62,576 nt of DNA from an uncultured Ruminiclostridium sp. (GTDB lineage: Bacteria; Bacillota; Clostridia; Oscillospirales; Ruminococcaceae), in assembly GCA_947627695.1 (NCBI GenBank), contig CANQXF010000014.1, positions 1 to 62,576 on the forward strand, read 5' to 3'. Position 1 is the stretch's first letter. Each line of letters opens with the position of its first letter. The translations under genes were made by a program, and so were the position numbers. A model generated the notes under the pieces. It ran no database searches. It had not been told where the DNA came from and saw nothing but the letters and a program-made list of their open reading frames with translations. Below, piece by piece: positions 1 to 10,165 of the stretch.

Positions 1-1337
1 TTAAGATCCACGTTTCCCTTTATTCCGTTCACCTTTCCCTCGTGACTGTACTGCCACATATAATATTCAAAATCAACGTCAGGCGGCTGGTCGTTTTCCG
101 TCTGCGCTACCCAGATAGCATAGTGATCTTTCAGCTTAGTATCTATATAATTCTCCAGCTTCAGCCTGAAAGAATACAGCATAGGATAATATCCTTCATT
201 TGCGACCACCTGAAGAAATGCGTCGGATATTTCGGAAATGCTGTCCTCTCCGCTTATCGGCTCTTCCACGTCCATTATGACAGGATATCTTATCTCATAG
301 CCCTCCAGCAGGGAAACGAAGAACTCAGCCTCCTCCACCGCCTGCTCCACTGATTGCGCATAGCTGTAAAAGTAGACTCCCACATTAACTCCGTTTTTTA
401 TAGCACCCTCCATATTCTGCCTGAAAAAAGAATCCTCTTTCGGACCTGTTCCATCTATATCCCCTCTGCCCACTCGGATTATGGCAAAATCAATGCCACT
501 CTTCTTGACTTCCGCCCAGTCGATATCGCCCTGTACCCACGATACGTCGATCCCCCTGAGCATGACCTCGTCTTCCTTCGCGAAAAGCTCGGCGGCATAC
601 AGCGGGATCTCTCCGTGTTGGGAATCATCGTTTACCGTGGCGTTATCGTCCTCGTAAACCGTTCCCGCGTCGGTATAGGAGCTTCCTTCCCTTAAATTCA
701 GCTTTCCCGCAACGGTGATGACTCCCAGCCTTTCCACCAGAATAGTGCCGCTGCTGTCAACAGCGCCGTCCTTTTCCACGCTGAAATTTCCCGCGACAGT
801 TATATTTCCGCTTTTTTCAACGTACATATTCCCGCTTTGCACCGTGGAGCTGCCCTTTCCGAAATTGACGTCTCCCGCAGCCGTGATATTGCACCCGCTG
901 TTAAAATTGTTTTCGGAAAAAAGATTTACCGCCGCCGAAGGCTTTATATCCAGCAGCCCGCTTACATTGACGAAAGAATTTAAGTCCGAATCAACTCTGC
1001 CGTAAACGGAAAGCGTCCCCGTTTCGCCTACGTTTATTTCTCCCAGTGAGCTTATCGAGCTTTCATTTCTCATATTCACGCCGCCGTTTATAGTAAAGAC
1101 AGCCCCCTCGGCGATTTCCAGCTTAGCTCCGTTTTTCAGCGTCAAAACAGTATCGGCGGGAACAACGGCGTTTTTGCTCAGTCTCACGTTCCCGCTTATT
1201 ATATAGCTCCTGTGATCCCTCAGCTCAAATATTCCGTCCCATTCCATCTCGGGAGGAGCAGCGAAAACGGCAAAGCCGAAACAGCCCGCAATGCTCAGCA
1301 CAGCAATAAGCGTGATGAAAAATCTTACCGCTTTCAT
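1..1337 (-). CDS. GH25 muramidase (lysozyme) with N-terminal repeat domain, 3' end cut by window
   Basis: Reads through 445 codons from an ATG preceded by GGAGGAGA and leaves the window at base 1. Residues 1-26 are a signal peptide; IAGC at 16-19 also fits a lipobox, so it may be a lipoprotein. Residues about 40-240 are a run of short beta repeats rich in V, G, N and S (GxLxVxxxG-type), probably a surface spacer. Residues 260-445 are a glycoside hydrolase 25 domain: GIDVS at 262-266 and MDVEE at 355-359 hold the acidic residues that cut the MurNAc-GlcNAc bond, and the MWQYS segment near 428-432 and closing GNVDL are typical of the family end, so only a few residues should be missing. Probable role: cell wall turnover or lysis of other cells. 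Confidence 0.9.
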   Translation of the reverse strand, partial: MKAVRFFITLIAVLSIAGCFGFAVFAAPPEMEWDGIFELRDHRSYIISGNVRLSKNAVVPADTVLTLKNGAKLEIAEGAVFTINGGVNMRNESSISSLGEINVGETGTLSVYGRVDSDLNSFVNVSGLLDIKPSAAVNLFSENNFNSGCNITAAGDVNFGKGSSTVQSGNMYVEKSGNITVAGNFSVEKDGAVDSSGTILVERLGVITVAGKLNLREGSSYTDAGTVYEDDNATVNDDSQHGEIPLYAAELFAKEDEVMLRGIDVSWVQGDIDWAEVKKSGIDFAIIRVGRGDIDGTGPKEDSFFRQNMEGAIKNGVNVGVYFYSYAQSVEQAVEEAEFFVSLLEGYEIRYPVIMDVEEPISGEDSISEISDAFLQVVANEGYYPMLYSFRLKLENYIDTKLKDHYAIWVAQTENDQPPDVDFEYYMWQYSHEGKVNGIKGNVDL

Positions 1338-1449
1338 ATCTCTCCTCCTTCAAAAAATCTTATCTTTTCTTATTTTCTCACATTTTCCGACATTTGTAAA
1401 GGGGAGAGAAGAAATTTACATAAAAAGCGTATAAAATTTTCTATGTATA

Positions 1450-2766
1450 TTATTCTCCGTTTCCGCTTTTGCCTTTTTCGTCCGAATATTTGTATTTTGA
1501 AAGCACGCCGCCGAACCCCAGACATATGATTATTCCCAAAATTCCCAGAATAAACATTGCCAGAGCGCAACCCGCCCCGTTTCCTACCCCAAACAGCGCG
1601 GACAGCGTATTATTTTCCGTTTTCATTATCGGCTCGCATACGCTTTCCACCAGCGCTCCGCCGAACAGCATTCCCACAGGAATGGTAAAAAACTGAAAGG
1701 TATTTCGGCAGGAATAAACTCTCCCTTGAATTTCCGCAGGAACGGTGCTTCGCAGTATAACGTCCAGATTAGCGCTCATAACAGGCACCAAAATCCACCC
1801 GATCACCTGAGCCAAACACCACCACACAGGCGTTCTTGCAAAAGCTAAAACAAAATTTTCCGTTCCCAACGAAAACAGCATTGTGAGATATATCACCCGA
1901 ACACGGTTTTTCGGAGCAGGCAGGAAGGTGACCATAATGCTCCCCGCCAGCGTAGCGACGCCTGCGCAGGCGGTAACTGTTCCCAGCACATTTTCCCCGC
2001 CGTTTTCCATAGAAAGCACATACGGTGGCAAAACAGCGTCAAAAGCCGACGCCGCAAAATTAACTCCCGCCATGAACAGTATGAGAGTCAGTATCATCTT
2101 ATTCTGCCGCAGATACACCAGTCCCGCCTTCATCTCGTTCAGCAGTGACTTTCCACCCTCATCGGCAAGATCCTTTACCGCCTTTACCGCAGGTATCTTC
2201 ACAAACATCATCAGCGACAAAAACGCCGCTGCAAAGGTACCCAGATCTGCTAAAATAACTCCGTCCATTCCCGCTATTGCAAACAACGCTGCGGCAAACA
2301 CGGGACTGAGTATTGTGACAAGGGAATTTGACAGCGACCTTAAACCGCTTGTCCTTTGATACTGTTCTTTTGGAATTATCAGCGTCATCGCCACGTCGCT
2401 TGCAGGTTGCTGGACAGTATTCATCAATCCTCCTACTGCGTTTAGGATATACAGATGAACAGGTAGCAGCAAATCTGCTTTCAGCAGTATCAGCACTATC
2501 ACTGAACAACACGCCGCCAGCGTGTCGCAAACAAGCATAGTTTTCTTTTTGTCCCACCTGTCGCTGAGCGCGCCCGCAAAAATGCTCATAACAACATAAG
2601 GCGCATAGGAGCATACCGACAAAAGCGCCGTTTGCAGCGCAGAACCCGTCTTTTCATAAAGCCACAGTGTCAGCGCAAAGGCAGTCATTGCACTGCCAAG
2701 CTGAGAGAGCGACTGAGTAGACCAGAGAATAAAAAAGGTTTTCAAGCCTTTGAATGTGTTTTTCAT
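1450..2766 (-). CDS. MFS drug exporter (Mef-like family)
   Basis: A 438-residue protein with about 12 hydrophobic segments. The loop 2-3 signature GALSDRWDKKKTM at 65-77 is the major facilitator motif A. Overall it resembles the macrolide-efflux (Mef/MFS_3) branch, which exports drugs with proton import; the substrate is not known here. The ATG is preceded by AAAGGAG at 2777-2783. It is the second gene after the ABC-F ATPase, separated by a leader peptide ORF and interleaved inverted repeats that can pair with this ribosome binding site, so its translation is probably inducible. An ABC-F next to an MFS exporter echoes the mef-msr pairing of macrolide resistance, but this ABC-F is not of the Msr type by eye. 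Confidence 0.85.
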   Translation of the reverse strand: MKNTFKGLKTFFILWSTQSLSQLGSAMTAFALTLWLYEKTGSALQTALLSVCSYAPYVVMSIFAGALSDRWDKKKTMLVCDTLAACCSVIVLILLKADLLLPVHLYILNAVGGLMNTVQQPASDVAMTLIIPKEQYQRTSGLRSLSNSLVTILSPVFAAALFAIAGMDGVILADLGTFAAAFLSLMMFVKIPAVKAVKDLADEGGKSLLNEMKAGLVYLRQNKMILTLILFMAGVNFAASAFDAVLPPYVLSMENGGENVLGTVTACAGVATLAGSIMVTFLPAPKNRVRVIYLTMLFSLGTENFVLAFARTPVWWCLAQVIGWILVPVMSANLDVILRSTVPAEIQGRVYSCRNTFQFFTIPVGMLFGGALVESVCEPIMKTENNTLSALFGVGNGAGCALAMFILGILGIIICLGFGGVLSKYKYSDEKGKSGNGE

Positions 2767-2770
2767 AATA

Positions 2771-2867
2771 ACTTTGCTCCTTTGATTTTATTTTCACAAA
2801 TAAGCAAAGTCTGAGGAGCCGTTATGTGCTAAGCTCCATACAGTTATCCTCAGACTCTGTATGGAGC
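2771..2867 (-). promoter_or_regulatory. Interleaved inverted repeats, candidate translational attenuator of the MFS gene
   Basis: Read on the minus strand the order is: arm 1 at 2867-2857, arm 2 at 2856-2847, arm 3 at 2843-2833, arm 4 at 2817-2808, then the MFS ribosome binding site at 2783-2777. Arms 1 and 3 are perfect 11-bp complements (GCTCCATACAG and CTGTATGGAGC). Arms 2 and 4 are perfect 10-bp complements. The two pairs interleave, so both hairpins cannot form normally. The segment 2814-2819, partly in arm 4, is complementary over 6 bp (GCTCCT/AGGAGC) to the MFS ribosome binding site. Pairing 1-3 would leave arm 4 free to mask the SD; a ribosome held on arm 1 would let 2-4 pair and free it. 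Confidence 0.6.
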
Positions 2868-2885
2868 AAAATCAATGATAAGCAT
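2850..2885 (-). CDS. Candidate 11-residue leader peptide of an attenuator
   Basis: ATG at 2885 opens a short frame, MLIIDFAPYRV then TGA, beginning 24 nt after the ABC-F stop codon. It has a good ribosome binding site (AAGGA at about 2893-2897, 7 nt before the ATG). The frame runs across two of the four arms of the interleaved repeats downstream, which is how stalling leader peptides of erm, msr and cat genes work. Seen: the ORF, its SD and the repeats. Inferred: that it is translated and senses a drug. Which codon would stall the ribosome is unknown; Pro-Tyr-Arg near the end is a plausible place. Confidence 0.55.
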   Translation of the reverse strand: MLIIDFAPYRV

Positions 2886-2908
2886 TATATTTTCCTTCTT
2901 GTTTTAAA

Positions 2909-4522
2909 TCAAAGCGTGAACTTACCCGGGTGCTGTACCTTTCTCCACTGGATATATTCCTCGTAAGTCCCCTGCATATCGTAGCTGCCGTTTTCGGTTA
3001 TCTCGATTATCCTGTTCGCCACCGTCTGCACTATCTCGTGGTCGTGAGAGCAGAACAGCACGTTCCCCTTGAAATCCGACAAACCGTTGTTCACCGCCGT
3101 AATGCTTTCCAAATCGAGGTGGTTAGTGGGCTGATCAAGCATAAGCACATTTGACTTGAACAGCATCATTCTGCTGAACATACATCTCACCTTTTCGCCG
3201 CCAGACAGCACGTTTACGGGCTTGAACACGTCGTCCCCGCTGAACAGCATTCTCCCTAAAAATCCTCTCAGATATGTTTCGGTGGTATCTTCGCTGTACT
3301 GCCTTATCCAGTCAAGGATAGACAGCTCACAGTTATTGAAAAAGTGGTCGGAATCAACAGGGAAGTAGCTTAAAGAAGTTGTGCTGCCCCACTTAAATGT
3401 TCCGCTGTCAGGCTCCATTTCTCCCGCCAGTATCTTGAACAGTGTAGTCACCGCCGCAGGATTTTCCGCAAGGAACGCCACCTTGTCCGTTCTTCCAAGC
3501 GTAAACGACAGATCATTCAGCACCTTAACGCCGTCCACAGTCTTGGTCAGTCCCTCTACCTGCAAAACGTCCTTTCCCACCTCACGTTCAGCCTCAAAGC
3601 TGATAAAGGGATAACGCCTGCTTGAGGCGGGCATTTCCTCAACGGTCAGCTTATCCAACAGCTTTCTTCTTGAAGTAGCCTGCCTTGACTTCGATTTATT
3701 TGCAGAGAAGCGTTGGATAAAGCTCTGCAATTCCTTTATTTTTTCTTCTGTCTTTTTGTTCTGCTGTTTTATCATTCTTTGTATGAGCTGGCTGGATTCG
3801 TACCAGAACTCATAGTTGCCCACATACATTTTTATTTTGTTGTAGTCGATATCCACAATATGCGTGCATACGTTGTTGAGGAAGTGTCTGTCATGGGAAA
3901 CGACAATGACCGTTCCGAAATATTCCGCCAGAAAATCCTCAAGCCACGCCACAGCGTCAATATCCAGGTGGTTCGTCGGCTCGTCCATAAGGATTATATC
4001 GGGATTTCCGAACAAGCACTGCGCCAAAAGTACCTTTACCTTGTCGTTGCCGCTTAAGCTGCTCATCTGACTGAACATTATATCTTCGGGAAGTCCCAGC
4101 CCCTGCACTAACTTTGCGGCGTCGCTCTCCGCCTCCCAGCCGTTCAGCTCCGCAAATTCTCCCTCCAACTCAGATGCCTTTTCTCCGTCCTCATCGGAAA
4201 AGTCCTCCTTTGCATAAAGCGCCTCTTTTTCCTTCATAATGTCGTACAGCCGTTTGTTGCCCATTATAACGGTATCCTGCACCGTGTATTCGTCAAAAGC
4301 AAAGTGGTCCTGCTTAAGTACCGACATACGCAGATTTTTCGGTATCGTGACTTCCCCCGAGGTAGGCTCCAGCTCGCCGTTGAGTATTTTCAAAAAGGTG
4401 GATTTTCCTGCACCGTTCGCTCCGATAACGCCGTAGCAGTTTCCCGCTGTAAAAAGCAGGTCAACGTCCTTGAAAAGCGTCGCTCCGCCAAATTGCAGAC
4501 TTACGTTTGAAACAGTTATCAT
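2909..4522 (-). CDS. ABC-F family ATPase, YbiT-like, with degenerate second nucleotide site
   Basis: A soluble protein of 537 residues with two ABC domains and no membrane segments, as in the ABC-F ribosome-associated translation factors. Site 1 is intact: Walker A GANGAGKST near 34-42, signature LSGND near 155 and Walker B LMDEPTNHLD near 177-186. A basic linker covers about 250-300. Site 2 is altered: its Walker A position reads AENPAAVTT (near 351) with no GKS/T, and its Walker B ends in DQP instead of DEP (near 462), although LSGGEK near 438 is kept. The long insert at 95-130 and the final EEYIQW resemble YbiT. First gene of an operon with the MFS exporter. Possible roles are ribosome protection or translation tuning. 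Confidence 0.88.
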   Translation of the reverse strand: MITVSNVSLQFGGATLFKDVDLLFTAGNCYGVIGANGAGKSTFLKILNGELEPTSGEVTIPKNLRMSVLKQDHFAFDEYTVQDTVIMGNKRLYDIMKEKEALYAKEDFSDEDGEKASELEGEFAELNGWEAESDAAKLVQGLGLPEDIMFSQMSSLSGNDKVKVLLAQCLFGNPDIILMDEPTNHLDIDAVAWLEDFLAEYFGTVIVVSHDRHFLNNVCTHIVDIDYNKIKMYVGNYEFWYESSQLIQRMIKQQNKKTEEKIKELQSFIQRFSANKSKSRQATSRRKLLDKLTVEEMPASSRRYPFISFEAEREVGKDVLQVEGLTKTVDGVKVLNDLSFTLGRTDKVAFLAENPAAVTTLFKILAGEMEPDSGTFKWGSTTSLSYFPVDSDHFFNNCELSILDWIRQYSEDTTETYLRGFLGRMLFSGDDVFKPVNVLSGGEKVRCMFSRMMLFKSNVLMLDQPTNHLDLESITAVNNGLSDFKGNVLFCSHDHEIVQTVANRIIEITENGSYDMQGTYEEYIQWRKVQHPGKFTL

Positions 4523-4589
4523 ATCTTATCCTTTCCTTATCCTTTCCTTGTCCTTTATTTCTTTATTTTTTATAAACTCATACTTTTCT

Positions 4590-4619
4590 ATAATATCACA
4601 AAATCACCTTTAAAGTCAA
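4590..4619 (-). promoter_or_regulatory. Promoter of the ABC-F/MFS operon
   Basis: Minus-strand TTGACT at 4614-4619 and TATTAT at 4590-4595 with an 18-nt spacer. The expected start near 4583 leaves about a 60-nt leader containing two tandem GGAAAGGATAA copies just before the ATG. Confidence 0.65.
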
Positions 4620-4728
4620 TCCCCAAAAGAAAAAACATCTTTTTCCGCCCGTTAAGGAACAGCCTGTTTTTTTCGTATTAAAATCAACAATCAATAAAAC
4701 TTTTTTTGTGAAAGTTTTGTTAAAACTG

Positions 4729-4757
4729 TTGATAATATACATAAATTATGGTATAAT
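4729..4757 (+). promoter_or_regulatory. Promoter of the adaptor/permease operon
   Basis: TTGATA at 4729-4734 and TATAAT at 4752-4757 with a 17-nt spacer, about 45 nt before the adaptor gene. The rest of the 280-nt divergent gap is AT-rich with no other structure I can name. Confidence 0.7.
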
Positions 4758-4802
4758 CTCACATAGATGTATACATTTATATTTTTGTGAGGGAACTCAA
4801 AA

Positions 4803-5786
4803 ATGAAAAAGAATACTTTCAGATTTATCAGCTCCTTATTTCTGGCAGGAACAATGCTTTTCACAGCGTCAGGCTGTTACTTTTTCCCTGATGAAGAGCC
4901 TATTCTTGAGCCGCCCACCCTTGACGTATCGGACGTTGTATACAATACATATACCGCTGTCAGAAAGGATATAGTGGACCAAAGCATACAAAGCGGCTAT
5001 GTTATCTCAAGCAAGGAAACGGAATGTTACTTCACCCAGTACACAGGTCAGCTTAAAAACATATATGTAAATCCCGGCGATTTTGTGGAAGAAGGGGACT
5101 TGCTTGCAGAGTTTAACAACGGAGCGATAGAGTACACCCTTGAGATACAGAAGAAAAAGGTGGAGCTTGCCCAGCTTAATTACAACAACTCAGGTTCGGC
5201 GGCGGACAGGCTTCAGCTTGAAATAGAGCAGAACACCCTCGACCAGTATCAGGCGGAATACGACGGCGGGCATATATACGCTCCCGTGGCTGGTCAGGTC
5301 TCCTTTGTCAAAACGCTCAATCCAGGCGATGAAGTGAACCCTTACGACGTCATCATAAGGATAGTCGACCCCGACCAACTTTGCGTCAGCATAGACACCA
5401 CCAGCATAACTGATTATTACGTTGACGAAAAGGTATCTGTTGCCGTAAACGGCGAGACCTACGACGGCGTTATCCTGCGCACTCCCCGTGAAGAGATAGA
5501 GGAGGGGGACGAAAGCGCAAGCAACGTTTTTGTCGGTTTTGTAAACGATTCCCCCGGCTTCGGCTGTCTTGGAACGATAGCCAGCGTCACCAAGGTAAAA
5601 TCTGTCTCCGAAAATGCGGTAGTCATTCCAAAGCATATCGTAAAGTACACTGACGACCGCACATACGTTCAGGTCCTCCGTGACGGCGTAAAGGTTGAGG
5701 TAGATATTGTCACAGGCATAGAAAACGCCACCGAGATAGAAGTAGTTTCAGGACTTGAAGAAGGGGAAAAGGTAATAGTAAAGTGA
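4803..5786 (+). CDS. Membrane-fusion (HlyD/MacA-like) lipoprotein
   Basis: 327 residues. The N-terminus is a lipoprotein signal with lipobox ASGC (Cys about 25), so it is anchored outside the membrane. It has the adaptor layout: a first half-lipoyl segment near 70-110 (YVNPGDFVEEGDLLAEF), a short helical hairpin near 110-150, a second half-lipoyl segment (YAPVAGQVSFVKTLNPGDEV) near 155-180, then a beta-barrel and a C-terminal membrane-proximal part ending EVVSGLEEGEKVIVK. Such proteins partner MacB/FtsX-type transporters; in Gram-positives they form the extracellular part. The permease follows at once, but no ATPase lies beside them. SD GAGGGA precedes the ATG. Confidence 0.85.
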   Translation: MKKNTFRFISSLFLAGTMLFTASGCYFFPDEEPILEPPTLDVSDVVYNTYTAVRKDIVDQSIQSGYVISSKETECYFTQYTGQLKNIYVNPGDFVEEGDLLAEFNNGAIEYTLEIQKKKVELAQLNYNNSGSAADRLQLEIEQNTLDQYQAEYDGGHIYAPVAGQVSFVKTLNPGDEVNPYDVIIRIVDPDQLCVSIDTTSITDYYVDEKVSVAVNGETYDGVILRTPREEIEEGDESASNVFVGFVNDSPGFGCLGTIASVTKVKSVSENAVVIPKHIVKYTDDRTYVQVLRDGVKVEVDIVTGIENATEIEVVSGLEEGEKVIVK

Positions 5787-5841
5787 CCACTTGCTGCGTA
5801 TAAAAAGTATACTGTCAAAAAAGGAAGGATTGATTTCAGTC

Positions 5842-8640
5842 TTGTTCACGATACTTTTCAGGAAAATGCGAAATACCAAATGGATGGTATTATGCCTCTT
5901 TTTGGGATTTCTGATGGCGGCGGGAATGATGAGTACCGTCCCTATATATATGGACGCCTCTCTCCAGCGTGTCCTTATCAAGGAAATGGAGGAGTACCAG
6001 CTAAATACCGGTTATTATCCCGGCAGATACATAGTTACCCGCACCCTTGCTATGGGCGTTGCTCCCGAGGATCAGCAGAGATTTCTCTCCGACTTTCCCT
6101 CGATAGTTGCAGGACAGGTATCAGATGTGGGAATACCCGTTGAAAATCACAAGACGGTCGTATCCGACAATCTTCTTTACCTTCATTACGGAAATGGGAG
6201 CAATGCTCCCGCATCCCGTATCCGCATTATGGGAATGAGTGGTATTGAGGACCACATCACTATGGTCCAGGGCGAGATGTACAGTGACGGCATAGCCGAC
6301 GACGGAAGCTATGAGGTGATACTCAACGAGGAAGCTGCCAGAACTCTCGGCATAGTCTGCGGCGAAACTTATCAGATAGAGCCTATGGACACAACGCAAA
6401 GCAGCTTTTCCATCAAAGTGACAGGCTTTTTTATCCAGTCCGATATGCAGGACAGCTATTGGTCCGAGGATCTGCTTAATTATGTGGGCAGCGTTTTCGT
6501 ACCCTTTGAATTATACTCCGATATGGTGGGAAAACAGCTTTGCGACGTTGTTGACATAAGCGTGAATTACAATCTTGATTATCATTCCGTAAATATGAAT
6601 GCCATCAGCTCCATTTCCGAGGAACTTAACAACGACTTTGATTTTTATTCCTCAGAGCTTGACGCAGAGCTTGAAATGGGCTCCGCAAGCATAATCGCCA
6701 GCTACGTCGAGCGTGCGCAAAGCCTGACCGCTATTCTTTGGGCGATACAGATACCCACAATGGTAATGCTTGCATTCTACCTGTTCATGGTATCTCAGCT
6801 TAACGTAGAGCAGGAGCGCAACGAGATAGCCGTCCTGAAATCCAGAGGCTCCAGTCCGGGGCAGATATTCAGGCTTTACGCAATGGAAGCGGGCATACTT
6901 GGACTTGTAACGTTCCTTGTCGCCCCGCTGATTGGTCTGTTGCTGTGCCGTTTCCTCGGCGTCAGCAACGGCTTTATGGAATTTGTAAACAGAACGGGGA
7001 TTGCCGCCAAGCTGTCAACCACCGCTTTCCTGTATTCACTTTTAGCAGTAGCAGTATTTTTCATCACAACAATGCTCCCAATAATCCCCGCTTCACGGGT
7101 CACAATAGTCCAGTATAAGCAAAGCAAGACAAAGGTAAAAAAAGCGTCTGTCTGGGAGCTTTGCGGAATAGATTTTCTTCTGATAGGAATAGCGGTAGTA
7201 TTCTACTATTTATACAAATATATGGTAGATGAAGCGATAAATAACGGAACCTTTAAGGCGACAGGGCAGATAGACCCGCTTATCTTCATCTTCTCCACCT
7301 GTATGATCTTAGGATTGGGACTTTTGTTTGTTCGTATCTACCCTTACATTCTCAAGCTAATCTATCTGATAGGAAAGCTGTTCTGGACTCCCGCGCAGTA
7401 TATGGCGCTTACCACAGTTTCCTGCGCAGGGGGAAGCAGAGAGCGTTTCCTTATGCTGTTCCTGATACTCACCTTTGCCTGCGGACTTTTCTCCGCAAAC
7501 ACCGCCCGTGCTATCAATAACAACAAAGAGGATATGATATACTATCAGAATGGCGCTGATATAACCCTTATGGAATATTGGGAGGAAGAGGACTACTCTA
7601 CCGAGTTATCGACCTCCTCCACGGTATATCGTGAACGTGACATCTCCCGTTATGAGGAGTTGGGCGGCGTAGAATCCGTTACAAAGGTCTTTACCAAGGA
7701 CAAAGATGACGTCAAAATCAACTCTCTGAGCAAACACAGCGCACTTGCTGCCCATTTTCCGCCTACTCAGCTTATGGCGATAGAGCCTGAGAAATTTGCA
7801 AAAACAGCCTGGTTCCGCGACGACCTTCTCCCGATCCATTGGTACAATTACTGCAACGCGCTGACAAATTACAAATCGGGAGCGATAATCTCCTCAGAGC
7901 TTGCGGCGAATACTGACACGGAAATAGGCGATCAGCTAAGCATATCCTGGAGTGGCAACGACCCTCTCGAAGTCACCGTCCTGGCGATCGTGGACTGGTG
8001 GCCCGGAATGAATCCTGGAATGTACTGTGTGTTGAACTACAGCTACGTTTACGACAACACAAATCTAGAGCCTTACGAGATATGGCTGAAGCTGGCTGAC
8101 GGTGCCTCCACCGAGGAGCTTTACAATGAGATGGATGAAAAGCGTCTGCCTATCGAAACTCTTCAGGACAGCGCCCAGCAGCTTATAAATCAGAAAAATC
8201 AGCCCGACCTTCAGGGAATGAACGGCGGACTTACCTTAGGTTTTATCATAACGATGATAATGGCGATGATAGGCTTCCTTATCTACTGGATACTTTCCAT
8301 AAAGAGCAGGACTCTGCAATTCGGTATTCTCAGAGCTATGGGTATGACCATGCGGGAAATAATCACGATGCTCGGCTATGAACAGATCTTGGTATCAGGC
8401 GCCTCAATAGCGATGGCTTTCGTTATCGGCGGCATTACCAGCGACATCTTTGTTCCCGTGTTCCAGAATATGTACGACGTGGTAAATCAGATACCTCCAT
8501 TCATCGTTTCCGCTTCCGCAAGCGATTACATCAAGATATACGTTCTCATCGTCCTTATGCTTGGCGGCGGATTTGCGATACTTGGCGGCATAATCAGGAA
8601 GATAAACATCAACAAGGCTCTGAAGCTGGGAGAGGATTGA
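5842..8640 (+). CDS. Large FtsX-like ABC transporter permease
   Basis: About 930 residues. A first membrane helix is followed by a long extracytoplasmic part, then a helix-rich block about a third of the way in (FtsX domain), more helices near the middle, a second extracytoplasmic region and a C-terminal FtsX block (GFIITMIMAMIGFLIYWILS, later an FGILRAMGMTMREI motif). This is the two-FtsX, roughly ten-helix permease type used with MacA-like adaptors. The start is uncertain: the frame is open from TTG at 5791, but the only good SD (AAGGAAGGA, 5821-5829) favours TTG 5842; ATG 5866 is the next choice. The cognate ATPase must be encoded elsewhere. Stop and the next start are one base apart. Confidence 0.82.
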   Translation: MFTILFRKMRNTKWMVLCLFLGFLMAAGMMSTVPIYMDASLQRVLIKEMEEYQLNTGYYPGRYIVTRTLAMGVAPEDQQRFLSDFPSIVAGQVSDVGIPVENHKTVVSDNLLYLHYGNGSNAPASRIRIMGMSGIEDHITMVQGEMYSDGIADDGSYEVILNEEAARTLGIVCGETYQIEPMDTTQSSFSIKVTGFFIQSDMQDSYWSEDLLNYVGSVFVPFELYSDMVGKQLCDVVDISVNYNLDYHSVNMNAISSISEELNNDFDFYSSELDAELEMGSASIIASYVERAQSLTAILWAIQIPTMVMLAFYLFMVSQLNVEQERNEIAVLKSRGSSPGQIFRLYAMEAGILGLVTFLVAPLIGLLLCRFLGVSNGFMEFVNRTGIAAKLSTTAFLYSLLAVAVFFITTMLPIIPASRVTIVQYKQSKTKVKKASVWELCGIDFLLIGIAVVFYYLYKYMVDEAINNGTFKATGQIDPLIFIFSTCMILGLGLLFVRIYPYILKLIYLIGKLFWTPAQYMALTTVSCAGGSRERFLMLFLILTFACGLFSANTARAINNNKEDMIYYQNGADITLMEYWEEEDYSTELSTSSTVYRERDISRYEELGGVESVTKVFTKDKDDVKINSLSKHSALAAHFPPTQLMAIEPEKFAKTAWFRDDLLPIHWYNYCNALTNYKSGAIISSELAANTDTEIGDQLSISWSGNDPLEVTVLAIVDWWPGMNPGMYCVLNYSYVYDNTNLEPYEIWLKLADGASTEELYNEMDEKRLPIETLQDSAQQLINQKNQPDLQGMNGGLTLGFIITMIMAMIGFLIYWILSIKSRTLQFGILRAMGMTMREIITMLGYEQILVSGASIAMAFVIGGITSDIFVPVFQNMYDVVNQIPPFIVSASASDYIKIYVLIVLMLGGGFAILGGIIRKININKALKLGED

Positions 8641-8641
8641 T

Positions 8642-9391
8642 ATGCCTACTCCTCAGATGCAAAAGATACTCGGCTATATGCGAAAAGCCGTGGAGACCTA
8701 CGACCTCATTCAGAAAGGCGACCGCATAGCCGCCGCCGTTTCAGGCGGGAAGGACAGCCTTGTTATGCTTGCGGCATTGGCTCAGCTCCGACGCTTTGAG
8801 GGAATGGACTTTCAGCTTTTCGCCGTGACAGTCGACCCTCGCTTTGGCGGCAGGGAAGGGGATTATTCCGCCGTAAAAGCCTTGTGCGACGAGCTTGAAG
8901 TCTCCTACCGAATTGAACCTACTGATATTGCTCAGATTGTCTTTGACGTAAGAAAAGAACCTAACCCCTGCTCTCTCTGTGCCAGAATGCGCCGTGGAGC
9001 GCTTCATCAGCTTTGTCAGGAGCTTGGCTGCAACAAGCTGGCGCTGGGACATAACAATGACGACGTCGTTGAGACCTTTGTGATGAACCTTTTTCAGGAG
9101 GGAAGGCTTGGCTGCTTCGCTCCGAAAAACTATCTCACAAGGCGTGAGATAACCGTCATCAGACCCCTATGCCTTGCCCCTGAGATTAAAGTTATCTCCG
9201 CCGCAAAGCACAGTGAGCTTCCCATAGTCGTTTCCCCCTGCCCTGCCGACAAGCACACCAAACGCCAGCAGATCAAGGAATGGCTTGATTCTATGGAGCG
9301 CGGCGACCACGGCTTTAAAGAGCGTCTTTTCGGGGCGATGTGCCGTGCCGAGCTTGACGGCTGGGGAAATTTTACCGAAAAAAATAATTGA
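8642..9391 (+). CDS. TtcA-family PP-loop ATPase (tRNA 2-thiolation type)
   Basis: 249 residues. The P-loop SGGKDS at 34-39 marks the N-type ATP pyrophosphatase fold. C110 and C113 (CSLC) together with C200 (SPCPAD) match the three cysteines that hold the Fe-S cluster in TtcA, and the GHNNDD motif near 137-142 is also typical. TtcA-type enzymes activate a tRNA base with ATP and insert sulfur (2-thiocytidine at position 32 in E. coli). The exact base modified is not known for this Firmicute branch, so no symbol is given. The ATG begins one base after the permease stop, indicating translational coupling despite an unrelated role. Confidence 0.85.
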   Translation: MPTPQMQKILGYMRKAVETYDLIQKGDRIAAAVSGGKDSLVMLAALAQLRRFEGMDFQLFAVTVDPRFGGREGDYSAVKALCDELEVSYRIEPTDIAQIVFDVRKEPNPCSLCARMRRGALHQLCQELGCNKLALGHNNDDVVETFVMNLFQEGRLGCFAPKNYLTRREITVIRPLCLAPEIKVISAAKHSELPIVVSPCPADKHTKRQQIKEWLDSMERGDHGFKERLFGAMCRAELDGWGNFTEKNN

Positions 9392-9409
9392 AACAGAGTG
9401 TAAATTATA

Positions 9410-9438
9410 TTGCAAAAGGCTTTGAAATATGATAAAAT
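9410..9438 (+). promoter_or_regulatory. Promoter before the S/F-rich protein gene
   Basis: TTGCAA at 9410-9415 and TAAAAT at 9433-9438 with a 17-nt spacer, following the TtcA-like gene. Confidence 0.6.
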
Positions 9439-9511
9439 ATTTGTGTAAGTTTTTGACTGCGCCTAAACAGTGAAATTCGCCCGCGTCTTACTATTGCAAA
9501 AAGGAAAGTCG

Positions 9512-10165
9512 GTGATCTCCATGTACTGCCTTTGGCTGAACGGAACAAAGGTCTATGACCTTGAACAGCTTAAAGCGGCCTTTGACCCAAAGGCTTTGGA
9601 GTTATACCTTCTTGGCGGGGGACTTGTCCGCTGGCTTTCCGACTGCGGCGAGACCGAGCTTGCACAAAAGGCGGCGCAGATAGACTCAACATATGACATA
9701 CACCGTCAGCTTGCGGAAATTTTCGGTATGCCCTATGCTTCTGAGGAGCCTGAGCCAATCACCACAGACGTTCCTCAGTCAGAGCCTGCACAGAATTTAT
9801 CCTCTTTCAACTCAAGCTTTGACATATCCACATTCGGCTCCTTTAATTCTTCCTATAATTTATCCTCCTTTGAGCTTACCTCTTTTGGCGGGATCTACAC
9901 ATCTTTCCTTACAGGCAGTTTTTCCCACGAATATGAGTACGAATACGAAAGCGGCTATTTTTCCGCCAACAGCTTTAACGTCGGCAGCTTTTCAAGCAAC
10001 AGTTTTTCTCACAGCAGCTTTTTCAGCGGCAGCTTTGTTTTCGGCGAATTTAAAGGGCTTTCCTCACAGCATATGTCCCATGATCTAACACCACAGCAAA
10101 AGGTAAGGATAAATCTTTCCTCCTGCCCTCTCAACCGTTACGGCTACGGTATACATATCGTGTAA
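9512..10165 (+). CDS. Unknown protein with a low-complexity Ser/Phe-rich C-terminal half
   Basis: I do not recognise this gene. The start is GTG 9512 (6 nt after AAGGA) or ATG 9521. The first 75 residues look globular: MYCLWLNGTKVYDLEQLKAAF, then a helical stretch with LVRWLSDCGETELAQKAAQID. From about residue 90 the protein becomes low complexity, alternating S, F, N, G and Y (SFNSS, SSFEL, GSFS, a short EYEYEYES run) until about 190, then an ordinary tail. No signal peptide or membrane helix, so probably cytoplasmic. Phe/Tyr-rich spaced stickers in a Ser/Gly background are the kind of sequence that can self-associate. The next gene starts 12 nt downstream, so the two are probably co-transcribed. 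Confidence 0.75.
   Translation: MISMYCLWLNGTKVYDLEQLKAAFDPKALELYLLGGGLVRWLSDCGETELAQKAAQIDSTYDIHRQLAEIFGMPYASEEPEPITTDVPQSEPAQNLSSFNSSFDISTFGSFNSSYNLSSFELTSFGGIYTSFLTGSFSHEYEYEYESGYFSANSFNVGSFSSNSFSHSSFFSGSFVFGEFKGLSSQHMSHDLTPQQKVRINLSSCPLNRYGYGIHIV

Follow-up and report, generated by a model that had tools for sequence, protein, structure and literature searches.

A short open reading frame (ORF) and five RNA arms precede the MFS exporter gene of the window (the whole 62,576-nt stretch of DNA that was analyzed). The arms, the leader peptide, their conservation, covariation and gene contexts, all read from sequence, together with a computed opening of the exporter ribosome binding site (RBS), indicate that this leader is probably a ribosome-stalling translational attenuator of the exporter, in which stalling by a drug, of a class that we infer from the neighboring genes, would induce translation. 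The distribution of related leaders suggests a shared, so far unnamed antibiotic sensor across several unrelated resistance genes.

Leader element upstream of the exporter gene

The leader element is real, and all of its features are on the minus strand (Table 1). The ABC-F gene ends at 2909, the Shine-Dalgarno (SD) sequence and ATG (2885) of the leader ORF follow within 24 nt, and the leader ends at 2850, ahead of the exporter start at 2766. Both the short leader ORF with a good SD and the perfect, interleaving 11-bp and 10-bp arm pairs of the original prediction are present. Arms 1 and 3 form the 11-bp pair. Arms 2 and 4 share a perfect 10-bp core (2856-2847/2817-2808), which extends to 13 nt at 92%. 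None of 20,000 dinucleotide shuffles contained two interleaved perfect 10-bp pairs; any perfect pair of 10 or 11 bp occurred in 180 and 52 shuffles, respectively. The minus-strand fold of the leader region had z = -4.72, and 0 of 200 shuffles were equally stable. The last arm had been described as complementary to the MFS RBS over 6 bp. The complementarity was found, and its length had been understated: arm 4 forms 8 contiguous pairs with the exporter RBS (ACUUUGCU:AGCAAAGU) inside a 14-nt match at 86%. Arm 1 can also form 8 contiguous pairs with it (UUUGCUCC:GGAGCAAA).

Table 1. Features of the leader element and flanking genes in the window
Feature	Position	Strand	Basis
ABC-F ATPase, closest to YbiT (PRK15064); upstream neighbor outside the conserved unit	2909..4522	-	profile match, genus survey
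SD of leader ORF, AGAAGGA	2899-2893	-	sequence reading
Leader ORF, MLIIDFAPYRV*	2885..2850	-	ORF reading of window sequence
Codons 3-4, Ile-Ile, counterpart of conserved C-I; predicted P-site of inducing stall	2874..2879	-	opening-cost model, footprint-dependent
Arm 1, GCTCCATACAG; partner arm 3 or exporter SD	2857..2867	-	complementarity, covariation
Arm 2, CAGAGTCTGAGGA; partner arm 4	2847..2859	-	complementarity, covariation
Arm 3, CTGTATGGAGC; partner arm 1	2833..2843	-	complementarity, covariation
Arm 4, TCCTCAGACTTTG; partner arm 2 or arm 5	2805..2817	-	complementarity, covariation
Arm 5, CAAAGGAGCAAAGT, includes exporter SD (GGAG 2780-2777)	2771..2784	-	complementarity, covariation
MFS exporter, H+ antiporter/Mef-like family, 438 aa	1450..2766	-	ORF and domain-profile matches

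The arms might instead form a terminator and an antiterminator upstream of the MFS gene. Transcription attenuation of this type is used, alone or in combination, by the related uORF systems MsrD, VmlR and CplR, according to published reports that include PMC10314930 and PMC10201436. It is quite improbable for the present leader: in a scan of the window the leader was free of minus-strand terminator-like sites, the sole such site on that strand was inside the MFS gene (2640-2625; shuffles average 1.9), and arm 5 contains the SD and is followed by TATTATG instead of a U run.

Conservation of the leader at exporter loci

A search for the exporter matched 72 of 197 family genomes at E ≤ 0.001 (own genome included) and 6 loci of genome_contigs. 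We inspected 35 upstream regions: 29 of the 30 fetched family loci, the window's own among them, and the 6 genome_contigs loci. L024, whose contig starts within the gene, was excluded for that reason. This search for the leader and arms upstream of MFS genes of relatives, by which the prediction was to be checked, revealed leaders with the same arms at 32 of 35 exporter-family loci, the window's own counted. Reading identified 28 of them (L005 is degenerate), and the model identified L023 (= L067), L016 and L027, and L028 weakly (E = 0.003). Reading and model search of the 35 loci revealed no leader at L007, L030 and L039. In L023, the leader frame runs on past its usual stop position. Among the named carriers are uncultured Ruminiclostridium bins (L037, L038); records of Monoglobus pectinilyticus (model E = 1.1e-21) and Subdoligranulum variabile (4.6e-20) also have the leader.

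BLAST with the window leader DNA matched 5 of 197 family genomes, own included. BLAST with the L008 leader gave no match in plasmids and phages at E ≤ 0.01, and an exact 18-base pattern matched one viral contig. The IMG/VR viral contig L077 (1-1289) carries a leader and an MFS gene near an ORF that appears recombinase-like by eye, a hint that the leader-MFS unit may be mobile. L048, L098 and L100 have a minimal two-arm form in which arm 3 itself is the SD of the MFS gene; judging from these sequences, a leader arm could directly hide the MFS SD there.

Covariation of the alternative helices

Alignment A1 contained 24 of the 28 leaders read; L004, L025 and L042 were omitted for long inserts and L005 as degenerate. 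For arms 1:3 and 4:5, 95.4% of cells were paired, vs. 30.2-41.7% in slid controls. Double changes were seen in 7 of 18 pairs, a number reached by 1 of 500 shuffles; the covariation score was reached by 0 of 500, and further pair types were matched by 130 of 500. For arms 2:4, 89.3% of cells were paired (slid controls, 28.9-47.9%), and 7 of 14 pairs had double changes, a number reached by 47 of 500 shuffles; the score was reached by 0 of 500 and the pair types by 22 of 500. Kinship alone can beat shuffles without structure, and the slid controls weigh most in these comparisons. In 37 model-aligned sequences, 96.0% of cells were paired and 11 of 18 pairs were doubly changed (0 of 500 shuffles), in an alignment that leans to structure. 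These findings demonstrated that mutually exclusive helices, one of which hides the SD, are conserved with compensatory changes. Both helix sets covary, and the lack of conservation or covariation that had been named as a refutation did not occur.

Effect of a modeled ribosome on the exporter RBS

The proposed mechanism depends on the position of the leader ribosome. When no ribosome is stalled, arm 5 would be hidden in either of two folds, one pairing arm 1 with arm 3 and arm 4 with arm 5, the other pairing arm 2 with arm 4 and arm 1 with arm 5. A ribosome stalled early, its P site at roughly codon 3 or 4 in the window leader, would cover arm 1 and leave arm 2 free; arm 2 would then capture arm 4, and arm 5 would be released. 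At later codons the ribosome would cover arm 2 as well, arm 4 would return to arm 5, and the gene would be off.

For the model, we masked 30 nt around each P-site and calculated the energy needed to open an 18-nt stretch (the opening cost) that begins at the SD and reaches to around the start codon. This measure was adopted after GGAG openness alone was equivocal (0.49 and 0.45 at codons -4 and -3 vs. 0.38-0.39 later; poor separation). The sample was 22 of the 24 A1 leaders; L037 and L038 nearly duplicate the window and were set aside. Mean opening cost was 8.6 kcal/mol with no ribosome. By P-site codon before the Ala, it was 9.5 kcal/mol at -7 and -6, 6.6 at -5, 4.7 at -4, 4.5 at -3, 8.1 at -2, and 11.0-11.8 from -1 to +4. 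The lowest-cost position was -3 in 11 leaders and -4 in 7 (together 18 of 22), -5 in 2, and -7 and -2 in 1 each. The gain over no ribosome exceeded 1 kcal/mol in 17 of 22 leaders and was below that in L002, L008, L014, L020 and L029. In the window, the cost was 11.7 kcal/mol with no ribosome, 4.5, 2.7, 2.6 and 5.8 at -5, -4, -3 and -2, respectively, and 11.9 at the Ala; the fold with arm 1 blocked, another check proposed originally, thus frees the RBS most when the modeled ribosome is at an early codon. Shuffled leaders (88) gave a flat mean profile of 5.3-5.6 kcal/mol. A dip of >2 kcal/mol on both sides was found in 17 of 22 real vs. 9 of 88 shuffled leaders.

At -3, the probability of helix 2:4 was 0.85 and that of 4:5 was down to 0.21; from -2 on, 4:5 was at 0.90-0.99. 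Ribosome position on the leader therefore alters computed SD accessibility. When the ribosome edge was set at P+12, P+14, P+16 or P+18, the minimum (mean of 10 leaders) was at -2, -3, -4 and -4; because the best codon shifts with the assumed footprint, the position of the inducing codon is uncertain by about one codon in each direction, and its match to the conserved C-I is approximate. Sequence and computation support the attenuator logic originally proposed, i.e., that a ribosome on arm 1 lets arms 2 and 4 pair and frees the SD.

Conserved residues of the leader peptide

The typical peptide of exporter leaders is M-x-L-C-I-x-x-A-P-C-K-V. From 101 leader sequences (27 + 74), 53 distinct frame-1 leaders passed a filter at the arm (A/S/D, then P/S/L, then C/Y/R). 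Counted from the Ala, L was at -5 in 39 of the 53, C at -4 in 34, I at -3 in 35, and Cys at +2 in 45; the Ala was present in 51, a number that the filter favors. Leu codons varied at the third base (CTC 15, CTT 14, TTA 5, TTG 2), as did Cys codons (TGC 24, TGT 10). The Ile codon was nearly fixed (ATT in 31 of 35), and part of the Ile conservation may therefore be at the RNA level. The L-C-I positions are outside all arms, at or within about one codon of the best-opening ribosome position. A-P-C-K overlaps arms 1 and 2, and its conservation is therefore not independent evidence.

Such RNA conservation is strong, and at some loci the arm is in another frame, as might be expected of a ligand-binding riboswitch in which the leader ORF is incidental. 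We consider a riboswitch very improbable, since typical leaders have an SD and a start codon before the arm, and the L-C-I residues, none of them in an arm, are conserved, with synonymous codons in use for L and C. The two Cys codons of typical leaders, at -4 and +2, would suit an amino-acid starvation attenuator that senses charged tRNA, e.g., for Cys. That the window peptide has no Cys, that 16 of 53 leaders have Ala, Ile, Gly or Met at -4, and that the recognized downstream genes are mainly for drug export or modification or of the CD3324 family (see below) makes such sensing extremely improbable.

The Ala of the A-P-C motif was rejected as proof of peptide selection or of chloramphenicol-type stalling at that residue, for two reasons: its GCT codon offers a G that is able to pair with the C of GGAGC, and a ribosome at Ala/Pro covers arm 2, raising the opening cost. 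Codon -2 (window 2873-2871) had a near-invariant first base (entropy 0.14 bits in the 53 frame-1 leaders) and in 52 of 53 encoded Ala, Asp, Val, Gly or Glu; it is in no arm and would be the A-site codon of the predicted stall.

Leaders upstream of other genes

Model R1, built from exporter leaders only, matched 6 of 398 phylum genomes and 30 of 197 family genomes (own included). Some matches preceded other genes: MATE (L070, E = 1.6e-8), CatA-like (L072, 4.5e-6), CD3324 then Vat-like (L047, 5.7e-5), radical SAM (L073, 3.1e-4), and CD3324, a hydrolase-like gene and Vat-like (L076, 0.0046). These E-values are per genome, and 595 genomes would give ~0.2 chance matches at the value of L073 and 2-3 at that of L076. 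Model R2, which included those matches, was positive in 30 of 291 class genomes; in the families to which G444 and G415 belong, it was positive in 10 of 151 and 53 of 148 genomes, respectively.

Over five model searches we fetched the loci of 6 of 6, 30 of 31, 30 of 33, 10 of 10 and 30 of 67 matches, 100 distinct in all. MFS family genes followed at 49 of the 100, 47 by tblastn plus L063 and L078, which have short flanks and in which MFS was found by other searches; the gene has an internal stop in L074 and is a fragment in L075. Other downstream genes were CD3324 (31 loci), CD3324 with Vat-like (2), CD3324 with CatA-like (1), CatA-like (8), CatA-like with Vat-like (2), MATE (1), radical SAM (1) and Lsa-family ABC-F (1). 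No downstream gene was recognized at 4 of the 100 (L046, L105, L113, L114). Profile scores were above the cut-off for the Lsa protein of L103 (762.6 vs. 750), for L106 with CatA_like_3 (385.1 vs. 275) and for the small CD3324 protein of L047 (110.5 vs. 65). They were under the cut-off for the Vat-like proteins of L047 and L093 (235 and 245 vs. 300) and for the CatA of L093 (209.8 vs. 270). No recognized gene follows leader peptide MKICSGTAPCKV in L046 (1501-1662); in L116 an identical peptide is followed by the MFS gene.

In the G415 family, 26 of the 30 loci fetched (L118-L143) had a CD3324 small protein downstream of the element. Mixed genes followed CD3324 there, including those for APH-like, nucleotidyltransferase, GNAT, sulfotransferase and methyltransferase proteins; some of these enzymes are of antibiotic-modifying type. 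Among the papers listed, those with the term CD3324 dealt with nematode assays. The arm is translated in a different frame in many CD3324 leaders and in a few others (e.g., QLYAKS), and the peptide is therefore not one family throughout; CD3324 leaders are mostly without L-C-I.

The mean opening-cost profile of 18 other MFS leaders also had its minimum -12 to -9 nt from arm 1 (10.4 to 7.3 kcal/mol). The same-place minimum was found in 6 CatA-like leaders (mean 9.1 to 3.7), the MATE leader (11.2 to 3.0) and the Lsa leader (8.7 to 7.0), and in the radical-SAM leader without a clear return (8.7 to 3.2). Fifteen CD3324 leaders showed a shallow mean dip (11.3 to 9.0), with none in L126, L137, L139 and L143.

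We lean slightly toward the view that many families of one phylum share a single sensor module, composed of an early-stalling leader ORF and five arms, and that this module stands before resistance genes unrelated to one another (MFS, CatA, Vat, Lsa ABC-F, MATE) and before CD3324 genes; CD3324 function would then be part of a response to peptidyl-transferase antibiotics. If this is true, inducible drug-response genes over many bacterial families, including genes without a known role, can be recognized with one covariance model. The inducer class would be predicted for an orphan exporter family, the CD3324 family of unknown function would be tied to antibiotic response, and M-x-L-C-I would be a candidate stall peptide with conserved residues at or within about one codon of the switch-opening position.

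Predicted inducers

CatA acts on phenicols, Vat on streptogramin A, and Lsa on lincosamides, streptogramin A and pleuromutilins; none of the three is known as a macrolide family. Since the element is also located ahead of CatA-like, Vat-like and Lsa-family genes, the stall may be caused by a peptidyl-transferase-center antibiotic of phenicol, lincosamide, streptogramin A or pleuromutilin type, which suggests that the leader family senses peptidyl-transferase drugs. Chloramphenicol prefers Ala, and less so Ser and Thr, as the penultimate residue, according to the accessible text of PMC11832420. With Ile -3 in the P site, the penultimate residue would be Cys (34) or Ala (7) in the 53 leaders. 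This residue is small and mostly off the chloramphenicol list, and the peptide therefore does not fix the exact inducer.

A macrolide could work the same switch, as for Mef(A), given the exporter's resemblance to Mef. The MFS protein does match macrolide_MefA (1.1e-32, 113.6 bits), far under the cut-off of 675; its best profile match is TIGR00900 (173.1 bits vs. cut-off 319.6). A macrolide inducer is nevertheless rather unlikely, in view of the CatA-like, Vat-like and Lsa-family genes behind the element and of the peptide. MLIIDFAPYRV lacks the +x+ arrest motif (Arg/Lys-X-Arg/Lys) of MefAL and ErmDL (PMC10314930, accessible text), and such a triplet was seen by eye in 4 of 53 frame-1 peptides (L003, L085, L090, L118).

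The upstream ABC-F gene

The original prediction placed the novelty in an ABC-F/MFS operon, which the present survey does not bear out. The best profile match of the window ABC-F was PRK15064/YbiT (652.2 bits, below the cut-off of 762), YbiT being a housekeeping protein. The window ABC-F does not qualify as one of the ribosomal-protection kind, scoring under the cut-off of that profile (NF000355, 355.7 bits vs. 380). Partial matches to defense ATPases were obtained with PADLOC (best mad3, 145.8 bits).

The ABC-F was present in 39 of 60 genomes of the genus. The leader-MFS unit was behind it in 3 of 30 fetched genus loci, i.e., the window's own and two others, which are those with ABC-F identity of at least 98%. 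The remaining 27 loci had no leader-MFS unit behind the gene, 6 of their contigs stopping 103-164 nt past it. Of 61 MFS loci tested, 3 of them leaderless, the same ABC-F was upstream in 3 (L001, L037, L038). Judging from these loci, the placement of the unit behind the ABC-F gene is incidental. L157, a genus ABC-F locus, has an arm-1-like motif 134 nt downstream of the gene, and beside the leader-MFS unit of L088 is a divergently oriented, distant ABC-F (28% identity).

Promoter-like sites with 11-12 of 12 matches were found upstream of 4 of 26 leaders scanned (L002, L006, L009, L025). The best site upstream of the window leader had 8 of 12 matches; a 10 of 12 site overlaps the leader start and would not transcribe the leader, and the number of such sites was no higher than in shuffles. 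In the absence of a good promoter-like site before them, the window leader and exporter are likely transcribed from the ABC-F operon.

Comparison with known systems

A search with 4227 Rfam covariance models (window 1-10000 at E ≤ 1; 15 loci at E ≤ 0.1) revealed nothing at a leader. In a literature search that covered few subscription papers, no description of the leader peptide or RNA was found among the matches listed. Chloramphenicol exporter and acetyltransferase genes have attenuators, fexA/cmlA and cat, respectively. The accessible main text of a human-microbiome candidate-RNA survey is without the words antibiotic, resistance, MFS, acetyltransferase and attenuat- (PMC8040213). Drug-stalled leader attenuation is well known as a kind (PMC5418344, PMC10314930, PMC10201436, in their accessible text). 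We judge that the leaders are a broad modular attenuator family for which no published name was found, with a mechanism of a kind already known.

In mefA-msrD, drug-sensing leader peptides precede a Mef-type exporter and an ABC-F gene, the same kinds of gene as in the window. The peptides MefAL (MTASMRLR) and MsrDL (MYLIFM) differ from MLIIDFAPYRV, and both act on transcription (PMC10314930, accessible text); the window ABC-F is YbiT-like and upstream. The cplR uORF attenuator of Clostridioides difficile is induced by retapamulin and lincomycin, has a stem that conceals the SD, and has been shown to use translational attenuation. That uORF is Met-Arg-Ile/Met with a terminator, whereas the window peptide is not MR[I/M], and the accessible text on cplR describes no L-C-I peptide or five-arm design (PMC10201436).

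The window leader resembles the attenuators of ermC and of a chloramphenicol export gene, as described in the accessible text of PMC5418344, in having a short leader ORF, alternative hairpins and a hidden SD that is freed by a drug-stalled ribosome, the stall being predicted in the window. In contrast to the erm-type, fexA/cmlA and cat attenuators, the window family has another peptide and other arms and stands upstream of several unrelated genes, and in the window arm 1 and arm 4 are both able to hide the SD.
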